NCBI GenBank assembly: GCA_024691015.1
Contig: JAILOD010000177.1
Location: 1-39,208, forward strand
Source of the DNA: Lachnospiraceae bacterium
GTDB taxonomy: Bacteria; Bacillota; Clostridia; Lachnospirales; Lachnospiraceae
Direction: 5' to 3'
Length of the DNA: 39,208 nucleotides
Positions 2-9,081 of the stretch are shown here, piece by piece. Both the position numbers and the translations under genes were made by a program. Under the pieces are notes generated by a model that was not told the origin of the DNA, searched no databases, and was given only the letters and a program-made list of their open reading frames with translations. The stretch's first letter is position 1; each line of letters starts with the position of its first letter.

Positions 2-505
2 TTTTCTCTTGCGGGCTCCATCATAAAGCAGCCGCATGATGAATACCTTGCTATCTGCCTTATAGATCTTGACGGTTTTAAACAGATAAACGATAAGCTT
101 GGACATCAGATGGGCGATAAGGCCATACAGATAACCGGAAATACCATAATAGATTCTATGCATATTGAATTCAGGGAAAAATGGTCATTTACAGAAAGGG
201 CCATTGCCGAAAAGCTCAGCTTTGCCGGAAGGCTTGGCGGTGACGAATTCATAGTTCTGGTCCGTGGCAAGAATGGCAGAGAGGATGTTGAAGCGTTTCT
301 TACAAACGTACTTCAGTGTCTTAATGAAGTTAAATTGGGAGACCTTCATGGAATAAAGGCCTCGTTTGGAGTTACAGAGATATTACCCGGTGATAATGAT
401 ATAGATACAGCTTATTCGCAGGCTGATGCGGCTTTATATGAGTCAAAGCGTGCAGGAAAGAATCAGATAAACTTCTTCCAAAAAACGGGAGGAGGTGTAT
501 CATAA
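2..505 (+). CDS. Diguanylate cyclase (GGDEF domain), 5' end outside window
   Basis: Makes cyclic di-GMP from two GTP. The reading frame is open from the first bases of the window, so the N-terminal sensor part and start codon lie upstream. The visible part is almost a whole GGDEF domain: the metal-binding stretch LIDLDGFKQINDKLGH comes first, then the active-site loop GRLGGDEFIVLV with an intact GGDEF, then the C-terminal ADAALYESKRAGKN helix typical of the family. No RxxD inhibitory site is seen just before GGDEF. It overlaps the next gene by one base, and that gene encodes an HD-GYP-like protein. The pair therefore joins c-di-GMP synthesis with a possible breakdown or sensing partner. Confidence 0.93.
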   Translation, partial: FSLAGSIIKQPHDEYLAICLIDLDGFKQINDKLGHQMGDKAIQITGNTIIDSMHIEFREKWSFTERAIAEKLSFAGRLGGDEFIVLVRGKNGREDVEAFLTNVLQCLNEVKLGDLHGIKASFGVTEILPGDNDIDTAYSQADAALYESKRAGKNQINFFQKTGGGVS

Positions 506-1431
506 TGGGTGATGTTTCATATTTTCTGATCTTCATAGGTATAATTATTAATTTTGCGGTTGCAGCCTGGGTTTTTTACCTCTTCTTTATAAAAAAGAAT
601 GTAGGTATAGAATTAAGCCCTTTACACAGGCTATGCAGCACGGTCGTACTGATCGTGCTTTTGTTAATAGCCGGAGTCGGCGTGTATATGCTTGGAAGTC
701 AGATAAACGATATATTAAGGGCTGTAGCTTATCTGAGTATAAGCATTGTTGTTCTGATAGTGTTTAAATGGGCAGTAGCTCTTATGAGAGCAGTTGAAGA
801 CAGGTCGGTAAAGATTTTGGAGATGCTGGTAGGTGTCATAGAGGTCGGTGATTTCAATTTGGACGGTCATTCACTGCACGTACACAACCTTACAATGCTT
901 TTATATGATTATCTGCCGTATAATCTGAAAATAAAGATAAATTCGCACAATCTGAAATATGCTTCGCTTCTTCTCGATATCGGAAAGCTGGGGATTTCAA
1001 GAAAAATACTTAACAAATCGGGAAAGCTTGAAGAAAACGAATGGGAATATATGAAAAAGCATCCCGAGATCGGCGTAAGCATACTTAAAACCGCCGGAAC
1101 CTTTGATTGTATTTACGACTGGGTAAAATATCACCATGAAAGGGTAGACGGAAGGGGATATTATAAACTGAAAGGGGAACAGATCCCTTTGGCATCCAGA
1201 ATGATAGCAGTAGCCGATACATATTCGGCCATCACGATGTCACGTTCATACAAGCCGTCTTATTCGTACTATGATGCCATAGACGAATTAAAGCTTGTTT
1301 CCGGGACACAGTTAGACGATGAACTGGTAAGGATCTTTGCAGATATACCTCCAAAAAAGGTGGAGTCCTGCATGGAGGATGTAAAAAGAAAAATGCAGTT
1401 TTATGATGAGGAGAAATTCAGAGTTAATTAA
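505..1431 (+). CDS. Membrane HD-GYP-like protein with altered HD and GYP motifs
   Basis: 308 residues. Three hydrophobic segments (about 5-29, 43-63, 71-94) are followed by a cytoplasmic HD-GYP domain (about 105-285), the fold that hydrolyses c-di-GMP. Family landmarks are clear: GHS at 121-123, MKKHPEIG, HHERVDGRGY at 210-219, IPLASRMIAVAD. Two signature positions differ. The HD pair reads LD (LLLDIGK, residues 157-158; codon CTC where CAC would give His), and GYP reads GYY (218-220). Loss of a metal-ligand His predicts weak or no phosphodiesterase activity, so it may be a c-di-GMP sensor or scaffold (inference). It overlaps the GGDEF gene by one base and is 11 bases from the TRAP-type lipoprotein gene. 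Confidence 0.88.
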   Translation: MGDVSYFLIFIGIIINFAVAAWVFYLFFIKKNVGIELSPLHRLCSTVVLIVLLLIAGVGVYMLGSQINDILRAVAYLSISIVVLIVFKWAVALMRAVEDRSVKILEMLVGVIEVGDFNLDGHSLHVHNLTMLLYDYLPYNLKIKINSHNLKYASLLLDIGKLGISRKILNKSGKLEENEWEYMKKHPEIGVSILKTAGTFDCIYDWVKYHHERVDGRGYYKLKGEQIPLASRMIAVADTYSAITMSRSYKPSYSYYDAIDELKLVSGTQLDDELVRIFADIPPKKVESCMEDVKRKMQFYDEEKFRVN

Positions 1432-1442
1432 GGGGGTAATTC

Positions 1443-2450
1443 ATGAAAAAGTATATTTCTGTTCTTTTAACGATCGGGTTGGCAGTGGTTATGTTATCGG
1501 GCTGTGGTTCAAAGAATGAGGCAGTTCAGGCTGAGAACGTGGTATTAAAGATCGGAGTATCCACGGGGGATCAGGATCCGAGAAATATTGCTGCACAGGA
1601 GTTTGCCAAAGAGATATCCGAAAAGACTAACGGCGCCATAAGCGCTATGGTTTATCCTTCCGGTCAGCTTGGGGGAGATGCCGCTCTTATTGATGCGATG
1701 GCAATTGATTCAAAGAAAGTTGACATCATTATTACCGATGCTTCAAACTTTGCGACCTACGAACCCAAAATGGGAATATCGGCAATGCCCTTCCTTTTTG
1801 ATGATTTTGATACCGCCTGGGCATTTATGGACAGCAATGTTGAGGCAAAGGCTGAAGAGCTGCTGGTAAAGAATAATATGAGAGTGCTTGCTCACTATTG
1901 TAACGGTTTCAGATGCGTTACCAATTCCAAGCATCCGATCGAAACGCCGGAGGACATGAAGGGGCTCGTGATACGAACACCTGAGAATCCGATGATAATG
2001 GCTACAATGACTGCATTGGGGGCCAACCCGCAGCCGCTTTCCTTCGCAGAGCTTTATCCGGCACTTAGACAGGGAACCTATGATGCACAGGAAAACCCGA
2101 TCCCGGTAATATACAATAACAAGCTTTACGAGGTTCAGAAATACCTTTCCATAACCAATCATATTTATTCGGGAATGTGCTTTACAATATCCGAGTCAAT
2201 GTGGCAGAAGTTTTCGGAGGAACAGAAAAAGATAATACAGGAAGCAGCGCTTAATTCCGCCCAGTCTGACAGAACGCTGAACAGAGAGCAGACCGAATCG
2301 CTTACGGACGATCTGGAAAAGGCCGGAATGATAGTTAATTCGCCGGACCTCGGGCCGTTCGCAGCTGCTACTGCATCCGTGCTTGAAAGCAATAAAAGCA
2401 CATACGGAGAATTATACGATGAGCTGGAAAAATGGAAGGCTGATCGATAA
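1443..2450 (+). CDS. TRAP-type solute-binding lipoprotein (DctP family), orphan
   Basis: 335 residues. The signal peptide ends in a lipobox (MLSGC, Cys at about residue 21), so it should be lipid-anchored outside the membrane. The rest matches DctP-type TRAP receptors: GVSTGDQDPRNIAAQEFAKE near the start, then GLVIRTPENP with the Arg that usually pairs with a substrate carboxylate, then the PLSFAELYPALRQGTYDAQENP block. Normal TRAP operons also carry DctQ and DctM membrane subunits; none is present here. The neighbours are GGDEF, HD-GYP-like and receiver proteins. This favours a role as the ligand sensor of a signalling operon over bulk uptake, though permease genes could lie elsewhere. The ribosome site is AAGGGGG. 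Confidence 0.92.
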   Translation: MKKYISVLLTIGLAVVMLSGCGSKNEAVQAENVVLKIGVSTGDQDPRNIAAQEFAKEISEKTNGAISAMVYPSGQLGGDAALIDAMAIDSKKVDIIITDASNFATYEPKMGISAMPFLFDDFDTAWAFMDSNVEAKAEELLVKNNMRVLAHYCNGFRCVTNSKHPIETPEDMKGLVIRTPENPMIMATMTALGANPQPLSFAELYPALRQGTYDAQENPIPVIYNNKLYEVQKYLSITNHIYSGMCFTISESMWQKFSEEQKKIIQEAALNSAQSDRTLNREQTESLTDDLEKAGMIVNSPDLGPFAAATASVLESNKSTYGELYDELEKWKADR

Positions 2451-2485
2451 TTATAATATATACCAAATTTTAATGGGGAAATGAG

Positions 2486-3214
2486 ATGGACAGAGTTTTA
2501 CTTGTATCAACAAAAACCGGGGCACTGAAGGAGCTGGAAAAAAGTCTTCAGGGACAATATCATGTGACCTCTATTTTAAGTTCCGATATGAACATGAAAT
2601 CCTCTCTCGGAGGTTTTGTTCCGGATTGTATAGTGGTTTACGTTGAGGCCATAAGGCGTCAGAAGCTTTTTTCACTTATGGATCTGAGAGAAGATGATGC
2701 ATTTGCGGAGCTGCCGCTTCTTTTGATATCCGATGAGGATGACAGGATTATTTTTGAGCAGAATGTTGAGCCCAAGCAGGATTTTCAGGTGGATATTTCA
2801 GCTTCCATTAAGGATATCCGTTTGATAATCGACAGGATGATAGAGGCTTCCGACAGGCAGAAGCATATTCTGGTTGTAGATGATGATGTAACCGCATTGA
2901 AGACCATCAGGACCTATATAGAGGATAAATTTAAGGTGACCAGCGTTAAAAGCGGGAGGCTTGCGGTTAAGTTTCTTGAAAAGCAGGTTCCCGACTGTAT
3001 ACTTTTAGACTGTTTCATGCCGGATCTTAACGGAGCGCAGACACTGCAGATCATAAGAAACATGGAGAACGGCCGTAAGGTACCTGTGGTCTTTCTTACG
3101 GGTAATTCGGATAAGCAGATGGTTATGAACTGTCTGTCACTTCATCCGAGCGGGTTCCTTTTAAAACCAGTTAAAAGAGAGGATCTTATAGCAAAATTAA
3201 ATCAGGTCATATAA
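2486..3214 (+). CDS. Response regulator with two receiver domains and no output domain
   Basis: 242 residues. The C-terminal receiver (about 126-242) is complete: acidic pair D132/D133 in ILVVDDD, phospho-acceptor D175 in ILLDCFMPDLNG, T205 in FLTG and K227 in LKP. The N-terminal half (1-120) has receiver-like spacing (RVLLVSTKTGAL, then PDCIVVYVEA, then LPLLLISDEDD) but no Asp at the acceptor position, so it looks like a pseudo-receiver. No DNA-binding, GGDEF or other effector domain follows. Output must come through protein contacts, for example with the c-di-GMP proteins or the exporter of the same operon (inference). No histidine kinase gene is in the window. Confidence 0.88.
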   Translation: MDRVLLVSTKTGALKELEKSLQGQYHVTSILSSDMNMKSSLGGFVPDCIVVYVEAIRRQKLFSLMDLREDDAFAELPLLLISDEDDRIIFEQNVEPKQDFQVDISASIKDIRLIIDRMIEASDRQKHILVVDDDVTALKTIRTYIEDKFKVTSVKSGRLAVKFLEKQVPDCILLDCFMPDLNGAQTLQIIRNMENGRKVPVVFLTGNSDKQMVMNCLSLHPSGFLLKPVKREDLIAKLNQVI

Positions 3215-3247
3215 GGTTAAAATAATAATTTTTGGGAAGGTAGTATT

Positions 3248-3472
3248 ATGAGTGAATCCTTATTCAGTAAAAGAGCGGAAGACAAGATCAATTCACCCGA
3301 GAAGCTGGATGAATATATCAGGGTCACAACCCCTACGGTATGGATACTCCTTGCGGGTATCATAGTTCTTCTCATAGGTTTTTTTGCATGGGCATACTTC
3401 GGAACAATTTCGAGAACGTTACCTGACGGAAGTGTGACATATGTGCATCCTATCAGCTATGTTATAAATTAG
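3248..3472 (+). CDS. 74-residue stub of an NHLM-type HlyD-like secretion protein
   Basis: The N-terminus resembles the start of NHLM-system secretion (membrane fusion) proteins: LFSKRAEDKINSPEKLDEYI, then VTTPTVWILLAG, one transmembrane helix (about 31-52) and a short FGTISRTLPDGSV segment. The usual coiled-coil and barrel-sandwich parts are absent; full-length relatives are normally a few hundred residues. The stop codon is followed after 13 bases by the exporter gene, so no leftover coding sequence exists in another frame. The ribosome site GGGAAGG is good. It is either a deletion remnant that is still translated or a dedicated short adaptor for the exporter. The family assignment rests on the N-terminus only. 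Confidence 0.75.
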   Translation: MSESLFSKRAEDKINSPEKLDEYIRVTTPTVWILLAGIIVLLIGFFAWAYFGTISRTLPDGSVTYVHPISYVIN

Positions 3473-3485
3473 GAAGGGTCTTAAT

Positions 3486-5660
3486 GTGAAAAAGAAGCTT
3501 AATTCTCCGGTTAAGGGACGTGTGGCAAAGGTTCCGGTCATAATGCAGATGGAGGCTCTGGAGTGCGGAGCTGCTTCCCTTACGATGATATTGTCATACT
3601 ACGATAAATGGATACCTCTTGAACAGGTAAGACGAGATTGCGGTGTTTCCCGTGATGGCTCCAATGCAAAGAATATGTATCTTGCTGCAGAGCATTACGG
3701 GCTTATTTGTGATGCATACAGATTTGAAGTGGAGGACCTGCAGAAGGAGGCAACCTTCCCCTGCATCATACACTGGGGTTTCGACCATTTCGTTGTTCTG
3801 GACGGTTTCAAGGGTGATTATGCCGTAATAAACGATCCGGCCAAAGGAAATGTGAAAATACAGATCGATCAGTTTGCCGATAAATATACGGGCATCTGTA
3901 TGATGTTTGAACCCGGTGAAAACTTTGTAAGAGAAGGAAAGCCGAAGAGTATGCTGGATTTTGCCAAAAAGAGGCTCAAGGGTACCGGCATAGCCTTTGC
4001 CTTTGTGATCCTGACATCCGTCATCACTTCTCTTATGGAGCTTGTCAATGTCGGGTTTAACAGGATTTTTTATGATGAACTGTTAACAGGGTATAATCCC
4101 GACTGGTTTTATCCCTTTATTATAGGCCTATCCGTTTTTGCCGCTGTTCAGATAATAGCCAGTGCCATAAATGTTATTTTCTCCTTAAGGATCAACGGAA
4201 AAATGGCGGTTGTTTCCACTACGGAATATATGTGGAAGCTTCTGTGTCTTCCGATGGATTTCTTCAGCCAGAGAATGGCCGGTGATCTGATGAACAGGAT
4301 GGGAACCAATGAAACCATTGCAAATTCCCTCATAAATACGCTGGCACCGCTGTTTCTGGACAGTGTTATGATGATCTTTTATCTTGTCGTTTTGATAAGG
4401 TACAGCCCCTTCCTTACGCTTATCGGTATAATGGCTGTTGTTATGAACTTCATATTATCGAGAGTCATTTCAAAAAAGAGGGTAAATATAACAAGGGCAT
4501 TGTCACGTGATTCGGGAAATCTCGAAGGTGTTACACTTTCCGGAATAGAGATGGTTGAAACCATAAAGGCAAGCGGAGCCGAGGACGGATTTTTTGAGAG
4601 GTGGTCAGGCTTTCAGGCCAGTGCGAATGCACAGAATGTTAAGTTTTCAGAGATAAACAGCTATTTCGGTATCCTTCCCACGATGATAAATATGCTGCTG
4701 GATGCATTTGTTACCTTCGCAGGAGTAGTACTTATCATCCACGGAGAGTTCACAATAGGTATGCTTACTGCCTTTACCGGCTTTCTGGCTTCATTTATGG
4801 CACCTGTTTCATCACTTATCAGTGCGGGTCAGACACTTCAGGAAATGAGAACCGATATGGAAAGGGTGGAGGATGTCCTTCAATACCCTGAAGACACAGA
4901 TCCTCTCGAAGAAAAGGCTGTTGCCGGTGAATACGGCAAGCTTACCGGCAATTTCTGTCTTAAGGATATTACCTTTGGCTATTCACCCCTTGGAGAGCCT
5001 CTTATCAAAAATTTCAATCTTAACGTGAAGACCGGTCAGAAGATCGCACTTGTAGGCTCGTCAGGCTGCGGAAAGTCAACCATATCCAAGCTGATAAGCG
5101 GACTCAACAAGCCCTGGAGCGGGGAGATAACCTTCGACGGAAAGCGTATCGGGGATATCGACAGAAATGTGTTTACGGGTTCCGTTGCGGTTGTGGATCA
5201 GGATATCATACTGTTTGAAGACACAATATCCAACAATATTAAGATGTGGGATACGACCATAAAGGATTTCGAGGTTATTCTTGCGGCCAGAGATGCCAAT
5301 ATTCATGAGGACATCATGCAGAGGCCGGGCGGCTACAATTATAAGATCAGTGAGGGCGGTAAGGATTTCTCGGGAGGTCAGAGACAGAGGCTTGAGATAG
5401 CAAGAGTTCTGGCCCAGGATCCTACCATTATCATTCTGGACGAGGCAACCAGCGCACTTGATGCCAAGACGGAATATGAGGTCATTAAAGCCATAAATGA
5501 CAGAGGTATAACCTGTATAGTCGTTGCACACAGGCTTTCCACGATAAGGGACTGCGATGAGATCATTGTTCTCGATCACGGTGATGTGGTTGAGAGGGGA
5601 ACACATGATGAACTTTTTGCGAAAGACGGATACTACAAAAATCTTGTTACAAGCGAGTAA
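3486..5660 (+). CDS. NHLM-type peptidase/ABC exporter with C39 domain
   Basis: 724 residues. It should cut double-glycine leaders and export the released peptide using ATP. The N-terminal C39 cysteine peptidase (about 12-135) has its catalytic set: C27 in QMEALECGAASL, H101 in DHFVVLDG and D117 in NDPAKG. A six-helix ABC membrane domain (about 165-450) follows. The ATPase has Walker A GSSGCGKST, signature SGGQRQRLEIAR, Walker B IIILDEATSALD and H-loop VVAHR. The start is GTG (3486) behind AGGAAGGG; an overlapping ATG two bases upstream hits a stop at once. It is followed after 3 bases by a second exporter half, as in NHLM systems. The likely substrate is the peptide at 7942. Confidence 0.94.
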   Translation: MKKKLNSPVKGRVAKVPVIMQMEALECGAASLTMILSYYDKWIPLEQVRRDCGVSRDGSNAKNMYLAAEHYGLICDAYRFEVEDLQKEATFPCIIHWGFDHFVVLDGFKGDYAVINDPAKGNVKIQIDQFADKYTGICMMFEPGENFVREGKPKSMLDFAKKRLKGTGIAFAFVILTSVITSLMELVNVGFNRIFYDELLTGYNPDWFYPFIIGLSVFAAVQIIASAINVIFSLRINGKMAVVSTTEYMWKLLCLPMDFFSQRMAGDLMNRMGTNETIANSLINTLAPLFLDSVMMIFYLVVLIRYSPFLTLIGIMAVVMNFILSRVISKKRVNITRALSRDSGNLEGVTLSGIEMVETIKASGAEDGFFERWSGFQASANAQNVKFSEINSYFGILPTMINMLLDAFVTFAGVVLIIHGEFTIGMLTAFTGFLASFMAPVSSLISAGQTLQEMRTDMERVEDVLQYPEDTDPLEEKAVAGEYGKLTGNFCLKDITFGYSPLGEPLIKNFNLNVKTGQKIALVGSSGCGKSTISKLISGLNKPWSGEITFDGKRIGDIDRNVFTGSVAVVDQDIILFEDTISNNIKMWDTTIKDFEVILAARDANIHEDIMQRPGGYNYKISEGGKDFSGGQRQRLEIARVLAQDPTIIILDEATSALDAKTEYEVIKAINDRGITCIVVAHRLSTIRDCDEIIVLDHGDVVERGTHDELFAKDGYYKNLVTSE

Positions 5661-5663
5661 AAT

Positions 5664-7844
5664 ATGGGAAATTGGTTTGATGAACAGATAAAAGAAAGAA
5701 AAGATAAAGACAGGCAGCAGTTTTCTGATGTTTTCCGCGATATGGGCAATGCCATAATGGGGAAAAAGGTTCTTGATGCTTATAATAAGAGTAAGGTTGC
5801 CGTAGCCGCAATGGAAGAGATCCTCGGGTTTTACAATATCAAAAAGGTTGATGTACCTGAAGAGATAGAGGATCCGGCCGAAAGGATCGATTATATCATT
5901 CGTCCTTCGGGGCTTATGAGAAGAAACGTAAAGCTCACAAAGGGCTGGTATAAGAATGCCATTGGGGCAATGCTCGGCACGGTTAAGGAAACCGGAAATC
6001 TTGTGGTTTTGGTGCCGCATGGATTTAAAAGCTATTATTACTGTGATTTTTCAGAGAATAAAAAAATTGTGATCAATTCATCCAATGAGCAGCTTTTGGA
6101 TGATGAAGCGATCGCTTTTTACCGTCCGTTTCCGCAAAGAAAAATGTCGGTTAAGGATCTGCTTATATATGCCATCGAGCGCATAAGAGTTACCGATCTT
6201 GCAGTTGTGATCGCATTTATGGGGATTACCACTTTAGTAGGTATGCTTCTTCCGTATCTGAACAAGATACTGTTTTCGGATGTGCTTAATTCAAAAAGCA
6301 TATCCGGACTTATTGCAACGATGATATTCATATTGTCCGTTCAGGTATCGTCTCAAATGTTTGGTACCATACAGACGCTTATGAATTCAAAGATCAACCT
6401 CGGTATCTCGCTTAATGTTGAAGCTGCCGCAATGATGAGGGTTATGAGCCTGAAACCCTCGTTTTACAGACAGTATTCATCCGGTGAATTGAACGAAAGA
6501 ACCCATTATGTTGGTAATCTGTGTACCACCATTATAAATACGGTATTAAATACAGGTATAAGTTCGGTATTTTCACTGATATATATTACGCAGATATTTT
6601 CTTTTGCACCCGGACTTCTTATACCTGCCATAATGGTCACACTTGCTACCGTTATCTTCTCGGTTGTTGCAACTCTCGCACAGATAGGCCTGACCAAAAG
6701 GTCCATGGAGCTTTCAGCCAAGCAATCCGGTATGTCCTTTGCTATGATCACCGGCATTCAGAAGATACGTCTTGCAGGAGCGGAGATGAGGGCCTTTGCA
6801 AGGTGGGGCGAGCTTTATACACAGAATATCGAGATCACATATAATCCTCCGATGTTCATAAAGATCAACCAGATCATAACAACGGCTATTTCTCTGGTGG
6901 GTACCATTGTAATGTATTTCTTTGCGATAAAGACTAAGGTTTCGGTTGCCGACTATTATGCTTTTCAGACTGCCTACGGTATGGTAAGCGGTGCGTTCAT
7001 GTCACTTGCGGGAATTGCTCTTACGGCAGCTTCTATCAAGCCGACCATGGAAATGGCAAAGCCTATCCTCGATGCCGAGCCTGAAGAGACCGGTAACAAG
7101 GATATTGTTACCAGAATATCCGGACGAATTGAGCTTAATAATGTTTCCTTCAGATATAATGATGATATGCCGATGGTTCTGGATAATCTTTCTCTTAAGA
7201 TAGATGCCAATTCCTATGTGGCTATAGTCGGAAAGACGGGCTGCGGTAAATCAACGCTTATGCGTCTGCTTCTGGGCTTTGAAACACCTATTAAAGGTGC
7301 GGTATATTATGACGGCAGGGATATCAATACGATTGACCTTAAATCCTTGAGAAGAAAGATCGGTACCGTTATCCAGAACGGAAAACTGTTCTCGGGGAGC
7401 ATTTATTCAAATATAGTTATTACGGATCCGAGGCTCAGCCAGGAAGAGGCCTGGGAGGCAGCTGAGATCGCAGGTGTTGCCGACGATATCAGGCGCATGC
7501 CGATGAAGATGCACACACTTATATCCGAGGGTGCCGGCGGTGTATCCGGAGGTCAGAAACAGAGGCTTCTTATTGCAAGAGCGGTGGCTCCAAAGCCAAA
7601 GGTACTTATGTTTGACGAGGCTACAAGTGCCCTCGACAATATAACACAGAAAAAGGTTTCGGAAGCATTGGATAAAATGAAATGTACGAGGATTGTTATT
7701 GCGCACCGCCTTTCGACCATAAAAAACTGCGATCGTATAATAATGCTGGAAGGCGGAAAGATCGTTGAAGACGGTACTTATGACGAGCTGATCGCTCTTG
7801 GCGGAAAGTTTGCCGAGATGGTTGAAAGACAGAGGGTTGATTAA
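5664..7844 (+). CDS. NHLM-type ABC exporter, second subunit without C39 peptidase
   Basis: 726 residues. The first ~165 residues form a soluble N-terminal region with no Cys/His peptidase motif, as in the second ABC protein of NHLM systems. The membrane domain lies around 175-455. The ATPase has Walker A GKTGCGKST, signature VSGGQKQRLLIAR, Walker B VLMFDEATSALD and H-loop IAHR, so it looks active. It starts 3 bases after the C39 exporter with no clear ribosome site of its own, which suggests translational coupling. The two proteins probably form a heterodimeric exporter in which only the first subunit processes the leader (inference). Confidence 0.92.
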   Translation: MGNWFDEQIKERKDKDRQQFSDVFRDMGNAIMGKKVLDAYNKSKVAVAAMEEILGFYNIKKVDVPEEIEDPAERIDYIIRPSGLMRRNVKLTKGWYKNAIGAMLGTVKETGNLVVLVPHGFKSYYYCDFSENKKIVINSSNEQLLDDEAIAFYRPFPQRKMSVKDLLIYAIERIRVTDLAVVIAFMGITTLVGMLLPYLNKILFSDVLNSKSISGLIATMIFILSVQVSSQMFGTIQTLMNSKINLGISLNVEAAAMMRVMSLKPSFYRQYSSGELNERTHYVGNLCTTIINTVLNTGISSVFSLIYITQIFSFAPGLLIPAIMVTLATVIFSVVATLAQIGLTKRSMELSAKQSGMSFAMITGIQKIRLAGAEMRAFARWGELYTQNIEITYNPPMFIKINQIITTAISLVGTIVMYFFAIKTKVSVADYYAFQTAYGMVSGAFMSLAGIALTAASIKPTMEMAKPILDAEPEETGNKDIVTRISGRIELNNVSFRYNDDMPMVLDNLSLKIDANSYVAIVGKTGCGKSTLMRLLLGFETPIKGAVYYDGRDINTIDLKSLRRKIGTVIQNGKLFSGSIYSNIVITDPRLSQEEAWEAAEIAGVADDIRRMPMKMHTLISEGAGGVSGGQKQRLLIARAVAPKPKVLMFDEATSALDNITQKKVSEALDKMKCTRIVIAHRLSTIKNCDRIIMLEGGKIVEDGTYDELIALGGKFAEMVERQRVD

Positions 7845-7881
7845 TTTATTATTTTTATTAGCCCTTGTGGTTTTTCTATCG

Positions 7882-7887
7882 TATAAT
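7882..7887 (+). promoter_or_regulatory. Possible -10 box for the leader-peptide gene
   Basis: A perfect TATAAT lies 55 bases before the peptide start, in the 97-base gap after the second exporter gene. The -35 match is poor (TTAGCC at 18 bases), so an extra promoter giving more peptide than exporter is only a possibility. Confidence 0.3.
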
Positions 7888-7941
7888 TAGTTGAGTGGTA
7901 AAAATCACTTGATCACATTGTATTTTAAGGAGGTTTTATTT

Positions 7942-8184
7942 ATGAATAATCACAAGATTGATGATGAGTTACTCGAAGAAGTCAGCGGAGGTCTTTCATC
8001 TTCAAAGACAAAGACGGTTACCATCGCAGCAGGTGCAGGTCTTGCAGGAGAGAGCTCTTCAACCACAACTGTTACATCCGGAAGTCCTCGGAATATGCAG
8101 GCAAGCTTAAGCGCAGGAGCAGGCAGAATGGATTCTGGAAATTCAAATGGCTTTGTTGCTCCGCCCAAGATCTCTCACAGTTGA
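7942..8184 (+). CDS. Double-glycine leader peptide, Ser/Thr/Gly/Ala-rich, putative exported peptide
   Basis: 80 residues. ATG 7942 is chosen over an upstream in-frame start because AAGGAGG (7927-7933) sits 8 bases before it. The leader MNNHKIDDELLEEVSGG has the acidic/hydrophobic pattern and GG end cut by C39 exporters. The predicted product is residues 18-80 (63 aa), with no Cys, Trp or Tyr and one Phe, rich in Ser, Thr, Gly and Ala, and containing AAGAGLAGE and SAGAGRMDSG. No lanthipeptide, radical SAM, YcaO or other modifying enzyme lies nearby, so it is probably unmodified. Its role (bacteriocin, signal or matrix peptide) cannot be read from the sequence. It is the last gene of the exporter operon and is followed by a terminator. 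Confidence 0.85.
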   Translation: MNNHKIDDELLEEVSGGLSSSKTKTVTIAAGAGLAGESSSTTTVTSGSPRNMQASLSAGAGRMDSGNSNGFVAPPKISHS

Positions 8185-8271: not shown

Positions 8272-9081
8272 TTATGCGTTTTCCTTAAGATAATTCAGGT
8301 AGCTTTCGGATAGAACTACATCCGTATAAATATGGGCGTAATCGGAAGGGGAGAGATCTTCTATATAATTTGTGGGCATACCGGGCTTTTTTATCTTTGT
8401 GTGCGATAAAAGATCCACGGCCTTATTATATGCTATGGCAGCTTCTTCAGCCGAGGCATAGGTGCCAAGCTGGTAAACCCCGTTTATGTGTATTTTGGCA
8501 ATATAGCTTTTTTTGAGACGGGAATTAACCTGCTCAGTTACGCCGTGATAATTGTTAACTACCTCAATGTTTGCATATCTGTAATCCGTGTCATCACCGT
8601 TAATGAAAAAATAATCCTTCCCGGCAACGGCGTAGGGACGTATGCCGTAACGTGCCTTCAGGTTCATCTGTGCACCGAAGTTCTCACAGAAGAGATGTCC
8701 CCCTCGGACCTGGATCTTATGGATAGAATAGAAGAACAGATCTTCGTTGTCGAATTTTAATTCCGTCTGGGGATTTAAAAAATACGAAAAGAACCGCTTG
8801 CTTAAATATATGGGGTTTTTGATATATACACCGTTATCACGCACGTTTACAAGGATTACCCATTTGTCGAAGGACAGTGCGCAGTCATCGGTGTAATCGG
8901 TAACGAAAAGGTCGGAATGAAGGAGGGTATGGGCCTCTCTGTACAGCCTGTTAGCTTCTTCGAGGGTATCGCGGCTTCCGAGGGAAATATGCTTTCCTTT
9001 ATATGTAAGTGATGCTCTGTAATATTCGGTACCGTTTTTCTTTTTGGCCTTAAATACTCCTGCGCCTGCTCCGCTTTTCAT
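8272..9081 (-). CDS. AP2-domain DNA-binding protein with a degenerate HNH core
   Basis: 269 residues. Two AP2-like three-strand-plus-helix units flank a central region: residues 7-53 (KAKKKNGTEYYRASLTYKGK, LEEANRLYREA) and 178-225 (KSYIAKIHINGVYQLGTYAS, AEEAAIAYNKA). Between them, about 147-177, IRPYAVAGKDYFFINGDDTD leading into YRYANIEVVNN resembles the end of the HNH module of AP2/HNH homing endonucleases, but the catalytic His residues are missing. It is most likely a DNA-binding protein derived from such a nuclease (inference). The start is supported by AGGAGG on the minus strand (complement of 9087-9093). It is monocistronic and convergent with the exporter operon. Confidence 0.75.
   Translation of the reverse strand: MKSGAGAGVFKAKKKNGTEYYRASLTYKGKHISLGSRDTLEEANRLYREAHTLLHSDLFVTDYTDDCALSFDKWVILVNVRDNGVYIKNPIYLSKRFFSYFLNPQTELKFDNEDLFFYSIHKIQVRGGHLFCENFGAQMNLKARYGIRPYAVAGKDYFFINGDDTDYRYANIEVVNNYHGVTEQVNSRLKKSYIAKIHINGVYQLGTYASAEEAAIAYNKAVDLLSHTKIKKPGMPTNYIEDLSPSDYAHIYTDVVLSESYLNYLKENA

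Follow-up and report, generated by a model that had tools for sequence, protein, structure and literature searches.

The DNA analysed here is a 39,208-nucleotide stretch from a Lachnospiraceae bacterium (assembly GCA_024691015.1, contig JAILOD010000177.1, positions 1 to 39,208), referred to below as the window. Our subject is the cluster of eight genes at its left edge, in which two proteins of cyclic di-GMP (c-di-GMP) signalling are followed by a solute-binding lipoprotein, a receiver protein and a peptide exporter. A preliminary description, made from the sequence alone, had reported eight genes running in one direction with gaps of at most 97 bases, and the open reading frames (ORFs) of the window agree with it: all eight lie on the plus strand at the positions it gave, separated, in order, by a 1-base overlap and by gaps of 11, 35, 33, 13, 3 and 97 bases. 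The gene families that it named were also recovered by profile, with four refinements: the GGDEF gene is truncated, the receiver protein is recognised in one half only, the HD-GYP-like protein has lost its HD histidine, and the short HlyD is a standard form. The genes are as follows (aa, amino acids; GG, double-glycine).

2-505, plus strand: GGDEF domain of a diguanylate cyclase (PF00990, 4.9e-23); 5' side truncated at the contig start, GGDEF motif intact.
505-1431, plus strand: membrane HD-GYP-like protein (PF13487 (HD_5), 8.6e-23) with three N-terminal hydrophobic segments by hydropathy.
1443-2450, plus strand: DctP solute-binding lipoprotein (PF03480, 2.7e-83; TIGR00787, 247.9 bits, over the cut-off).
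2486-3214, plus strand: receiver-only protein (Response_reg PF00072, 5.2e-26, second half only).
3248-3472, plus strand: short HlyD-like protein, 74 aa, one hydrophobic segment (partial match to TIGR03794).
3486-5660, plus strand: ABC1, subunit 1 of an NHLM-type exporter, with C39 peptidase, permease and ATPase (GTG start; TIGR03796, 891.7 bits).
5664-7844, plus strand: ABC2, subunit 2 of the NHLM-type exporter, with permease and ATPase (TIGR03797, 692.3 bits).
7942-8184, plus strand: GG-leader peptide without cysteine, 80 aa with the in-frame ATG at 7942 taken as start (frame; weak Bacteriocin_IIc match).

The window and the contig (C198 in our numbering) start at the same base, and the GGDEF gene is therefore truncated by the assembly. 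A scan for promoters and terminators counted 27 and 10 sites, near the means for shuffled sequence (21.0 and 7.5); all those between 2450 and 3486 fall inside genes and none there is intergenic. The first 8.3 kb of the window gave no match in a near search of a plasmid collection.

A recurring trio of cyclase, HD-GYP-like protein and binding protein

The full-length cyclase of related genomes is about 390 aa long and carries, besides GGDEF, an N-terminal membrane domain some 200 aa in length, to which simple hydropathy assigned 4 to 6 helices in the seven relatives scored. The approximately 200 N-terminal residues of the cyclase of genome G013 received no Pfam name at E values up to 0.01. This full-length relative contains GGDEF only, the HD-GYP being encoded by a separate gene, and is not a GGDEF-EAL fusion. 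We searched for the N-terminal domain in samples of genus, family and class genomes, drawn evenly and overlapping, and obtained 21 matches overall: 17 in 14 of the 48 genus genomes, the others in 3 of 299 family genomes and in 1 of 391 class genomes, itself from the same family. The window's own genome is among the 48, and it gave no match because the N-terminus of its cyclase lies off the contig.

Two of the 21 matches run off contig ends (G015:C84 and G034:C31). At all 19 readable loci a binding-protein gene stands beside the cyclase gene, or is separated from it only by the HD-GYP gene. These binding proteins are of four kinds, namely DctP (nine loci), SBP_bac_1/8 (eight), NMT1 (one) and Peripla_BP (Peripla_BP_4/7; one), seven being assigned by Pfam and the other 12 by BLAST identity of at least 60% to the window DctP or to the G012 protein. 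An HD-GYP-like gene is present at 16 of the 19 loci. The gene order varies: in G017 and G158 the binding-protein gene precedes that of the cyclase, and in G007 the cyclase gene is oriented convergently to the other two. The cyclase motif reads GGDEF in 17 relatives and GGDEY in two. Inspection by eye, rather than a Pfam scan of all neighbours, showed no DctQM or ABC permease next to the binding protein at the 19 loci or in the window; in G100, a 1196-aa neighbour may include a transporter-like part. As a control, nine HD-GYP relatives outside the trio showed no binding-protein match next door, the queries being DctP and the G012 protein for eight of them and DctP only for one, and other binding-protein families not being searched. 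The trio therefore recurs, and the family of its binding protein is exchanged between loci. The link drawn in the preliminary description between an orphan DctP and c-di-GMP proteins is supported, since the same units are found together in other genomes. No title or abstract in the literature that we searched describes such a trio, most subscription papers being outside the coverage of that search.

Among solved structures, the window DctP is best matched by TRAP DctP and sialic-acid-binding proteins (4p47, 4mmp). Judged by its sequence, its ligand is probably an organic acid; the arginine of the IRTPENP/DAQENP motif region presumably binds a carboxylate. Relatives with at least 65% identity occur in 13 of the 48 genus genomes (65-77% identity, 13 matches in 12 other genomes), and more distant ones (30-33%) in seven. 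The 13 close relatives outside the window comprise seven with the cyclase, two with DctQM (G032:C272 and G011:C40, 72-74% identical to the window DctP), three with neither (G034:C200 and G044:C17, both beside a 254-aa membrane protein, and the fragment G008:C35) and one, G007:C31, that is truncated by a contig edge and unreadable. The window DctP and the two paralogues linked to DctQM have identical motifs such as IRTPENP and DAQENP and differ slightly elsewhere; the G100 protein departs from this pattern.

We considered the possibility that DctP serves for uptake only, feeding a DctQM permease encoded elsewhere, and that its c-di-GMP neighbourhood is accidental. The genome does contain three DctM genes, and the paralogues of G032 and G011 that lie with DctQM share most motifs with the window DctP. 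Yet each of these DctM genes, located on other contigs (C210, C38 and C1), has its own binding-protein gene beside it by eye, and chance would not place a binding protein, of four kinds, at 19 of 19 cyclase loci. We regard the uptake-only explanation as unlikely. In the window itself, no DctQ or DctM gene lies beside DctP, DctQM being absent from the ORFs of the first 14 kb, and the gene set of a TRAP transporter is incomplete there.

Several other features of the DctP loci were noted. The 254-aa membrane protein, which has no Pfam match, stands beside DctP at three loci (L201 1576-2340; L203 5488-6252; L210 1556-2320) and in G015 also adjoins the cyclase. The close paralogues linked to DctQM are found at L208 861-3921 and L209 1-7076, and the DctP-DctQM genes of G011 lie near genes that by eye are shell-protein-like, dehydrogenase-like and keto-acid-cleavage-like, possibly a clue to the ligand. 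In G024 (L213 3352-9282), the genes of a more distant DctP and its DctQM precede a further GGDEF gene and the gene of a binding-protein-like lipoprotein, a second type of neighbourhood that joins binding protein and cyclase.

Catalytic motifs of the HD-GYP-like protein

The HD fold of the window HD-GYP is present by profile (PF13487, 8.6e-23). In the motif columns, and in an alignment to the solved HD-GYP protein 4mcw, its HD histidine is replaced by leucine and GYP reads GYY, while the other metal-ligand motifs and the GY of GYP are retained. We compared 18 trio HD-GYPs (the window protein, the 16 from the cyclase loci and G015:C152). Fifteen of them carry L, I or R in place of the HD histidine and three retain it (G020:C9, G007:C49 and G158:C18); it is also retained in all nine relatives outside the trio (loss in none of nine). 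The GY of the GYP motif is conserved in every aligned row. Because a FastTree tree places most losses in one clade, with G020:C9 nested within it and G017 (R) apart, the loss of the HD histidine appears to be mainly one ancestral change; many independent losses were considered as an alternative and are ruled out by this tree.

The window HD-GYP is accordingly best described as a predicted pseudo-phosphodiesterase. A similar case is Bd1817, described as having the HD-GYP fold with a degenerate site and not expected to be active as a phosphodiesterase (PMC4159591). In Bd1817 it is the GYP tyrosine that is missing, whereas the window protein lacks the HD histidine and keeps GY. We consider it improbable that the HD-GYP has kept phosphodiesterase activity and that the pair raises and lowers c-di-GMP like the two halves of MbaA, the Vibrio cholerae enzyme discussed below. 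The retention of the other metal-ligand motifs and GY in the window, and of the HD histidine in three of the 18 trio copies, would fit such activity. However, in PmGH, alteration of any metal ligand except E185 and D305 is reported to abolish activity (PMC4159591), and the histidine position of the window protein aligns with a leucine.

Receiver, exporter and the three units

The preliminary description had suggested that the eight genes form a single system, with the export of a small peptide under the control of an outside ligand and c-di-GMP, and had looked to conserved gene order among relatives as a check. This was not borne out by the 48 genus genomes, in which the units are separate and come together in the window only. 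ABC1 relatives (E up to 1e-150) are present in 41 of the 48, often with paralogues, and the window's own genome has six. Close relatives of the receiver (45-72% identity, E <1e-70) are found in 38, one copy in each of the 37 others, the remaining 10 genomes showing only weaker matches. DctP, as stated above, occurs in 13, and relatives thus carry the exporter genes apart from the signalling genes, which is the outcome that the preliminary description had itself named as refuting its proposal. DctP lies on one contig with ABC1 or with the receiver in the window only. Receiver and ABC1 share a contig once more, on the near-complete chromosome of G024, where they are >1.2 Mb apart. The eight-gene order is absent from all other genomes and loci examined.

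We also inspected 80 ABC1 loci from named contigs, 51 of which include at least 4 kb upstream. None of the 80 has a DctP or GGDEF relative within the stretch fetched (tblastn, 1e-5); receiver-like matches are found in four and HD-GYP-like matches in two, at distances of 1.4-8.4 kb. In G042, likely the closest relative (receiver 72%, partial ABC1 73%), the receiver and the trio are on separate contigs from ABC1, the receiver adjoins PHP/coaX genes, and the trio carries another binding protein. The upstream side of this exporter cannot be read, since the contig starts inside ABC1.

Some NHLM exporter loci of the genus lie near receiver, hybrid kinase and STAS-type anti-sigma-antagonist genes, as seen by eye and by BLAST (L221 8057-8425; L226 1-6077; L227 8024-8803; L237 3871-4233), and this counts against a separation of the units. 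The signalling neighbours differ each time, with no recurring set among the loci listed. In G042, a different receiver-type protein, 33% identical to the window receiver, is convergent to another NHLM exporter (L294 3-764).

The second half of the window receiver protein is one canonical receiver, and its first half matches nothing in Pfam at E values up to 0.1. For 29 of the 37 relatives, flanks of up to 1.5 kb were fetched. They contain coaX in 18 cases and coaBC in eight others, 26 of 29 in total, and exporter genes, DctP and HD-GYP in none of the 29. In the window's own genome, coaX adjoins a coaBC-like gene (by eye) on contig C170, and the receiver is not there. Since the copies of the relatives adjoin coaX or coaBC and the genome's own coaX locus lacks the receiver, the gene has probably been relocated to the window locus in this lineage.

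The exporter corresponds to the three-gene set of HlyD, peptidase-ABC and ABC protein that has been described for NHLM/NHLP exporters (TIGR03794, TIGR03796 and TIGR03797; PMC2887384). ABC1 scores 891.7 bits against a cut-off of 853.3 for TIGR03796. ABC2 scores 692.3 bits for TIGR03797, slightly below the cut-off of 709.4, and this is by far its best family. In the window, a GG-leader peptide gene follows the set. The window set differs from the described one in that HlyD has only 74 aa and that this peptide matched no NCBIfam model; its Bacteriocin_IIc match (0.0087) is below the cut-off. The window HlyD is not the full-length protein of TIGR03794, a model of 421 positions: residues 13-58 match model positions 1-46 with 32.7 bits, against a cut-off of 156.2.

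We examined whether such a short HlyD is usual. We took 110 distinct ABC1 genes from the window and the fetched loci; directly upstream, 99 of them have an HlyD-like ORF, three have no room and eight have room but no HlyD match. The 99 lengths, counted from the aligned start and with ORFs of at least 450 aa left out, fall at or below 95 aa in 25 cases (74 aa in 23) and at 137-173 aa in 74, none being longer. A pseudogene was considered and is ruled out by these sharp length classes. The window HlyD, with its 74 aa, represents a standard short form of the exporter's third subunit, and these bacteria may generally have that subunit in reduced form. The GG-leader peptide is the probable cargo, and the whole of 3248-8184 is an ordinary NHLM peptide exporter of the Clostridia type. 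To its right, the cluster is bounded by a 269-aa gene on the opposite strand (8272-9081, minus strand), the sequence of which suggests a DNA-binding protein.

These findings indicate that the three units, 2-2450, 2486-3214 and 3248-8184, are independent in other genomes, and the eight genes are better explained as units joined in this lineage than as one operon through which an outside ligand and c-di-GMP control peptide export. The latter we consider quite doubtful. The shared strand, the gaps of 3 to 97 bases and the lack of any intergenic terminator-like site between 2450 and 3486 speak for it, and the receiver, missing from its usual place in this genome, could have been recruited. However, none of the other genomes examined has this order, the units are each found alone, and in G042 the receiver lies by PHP/coaX genes while the trio has another binding protein. 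Co-transcription of the trio with the exporter is possible in this one genome. An error in the assembly, a draft of 340 contigs, is very unlikely to have produced the DctP-receiver or receiver-HlyD junctions, for although the genome's six ABC1 matches could confuse assembly and the junctions are seen in no other genome, the gaps are short with normal start sites, and the coaX-coaBC stretch without the receiver is what a real move would leave.

Proposed mechanism and relation to known receptors

We thus consider the three-unit account, with the sensory trio as unit 1, to be the probable one. In the mechanism that we propose, the lipid-anchored solute-binding protein would capture an outside ligand, which for DctP is probably an organic acid. 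The loaded protein would dock on the diguanylate cyclase at its membrane-embedded N-terminal domain, and perhaps on the HD-GYP protein at its membrane part as well, and docking would change c-di-GMP synthesis, if the signal runs in this direction. The HD-GYP, devoid of a catalytic metal ligand, would most likely act as a regulator that binds c-di-GMP or a partner. Unit 2 is the receiver protein, found beside coenzyme A biosynthesis genes in relatives and presumably moved from there.

Several points weigh against the trio acting in this way. The HD-GYP is absent from three of the 19 cyclase loci (G015:C255, G020:C59 and G100:C2) and, as mentioned above, three of the 18 trio HD-GYPs retain the HD histidine. 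The 19 loci are not all intact or independent, since the DctP frame of G015 contains a stop (TAG), the cyclase of G018 is split across two frames, and the loci of G012 and G042 are nearly identical. DctP is not exclusive to the trio, as relatives also occur with DctQM or with neither. Finally, the cyclase has no visible extracellular domain for docking, and the N-terminus of the window cyclase lies beyond the contig.

The closest parallel is NspS-MbaA of Vibrio cholerae, with homologues in Sinorhizobium meliloti, in which a free binding protein is reported to switch a c-di-GMP enzyme, its ligand state determining c-di-GMP (PMC8967002; PMC9993111). Receptors stimulated by solute-binding proteins are described as widespread (PMC9602780). 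By analogy, the trio would follow the logic of NspS-MbaA with other parts. Its genes likewise place a free binding protein without a transporter of its own beside a membrane c-di-GMP enzyme. In contrast to MbaA, which is one GGDEF-EAL protein, it consists of a GGDEF protein and a separate pseudo-HD-GYP, and the N-terminal domain of its cyclase, unlike MbaA, has only short segments between helices. NspS binds polyamines, whereas the binding protein of the trio is of four kinds. Binding-protein folds are also described as sensors of c-di-GMP enzymes in CdgH and RmcA (PMC5431781; PMC8846402), as proposed for the trio. In those two proteins, however, the sensor is fused to the enzyme, whereas the trio sensor is a separate lipoprotein gene exchanged between loci.

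A wider proposal, for and against which we are evenly divided, is that the trio represents a family of plug-in c-di-GMP receptors, so far seen in one bacterial family, probably Lachnospiraceae. Its members would share a membrane-embedded cyclase without an extracellular sensor domain, mostly accompanied by a pseudo-HD-GYP, and would be served by at least four kinds of interchangeable binding proteins, the ligand being changed by the swap of one gene. In the window, a rearrangement may also have put this module on one transcript with the receiver and the exporter.

Tight spacing on one contig is not in itself evidence of one system. What merits following in the cluster is the trio at its left edge; the exporter is ordinary for Clostridia. 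According to a review of the subject, SBP_bac_3 is the only family of the PBP clan that has been investigated in the context of c-di-GMP networks (PMC8846402). Natural ligands are known for only a minority of c-di-GMP enzymes, and a sensor in the form of a separate binding protein makes the question of the ligand directly testable. If true, the proposal would show how gut and rumen bacteria alter what they sense without altering the enzyme.

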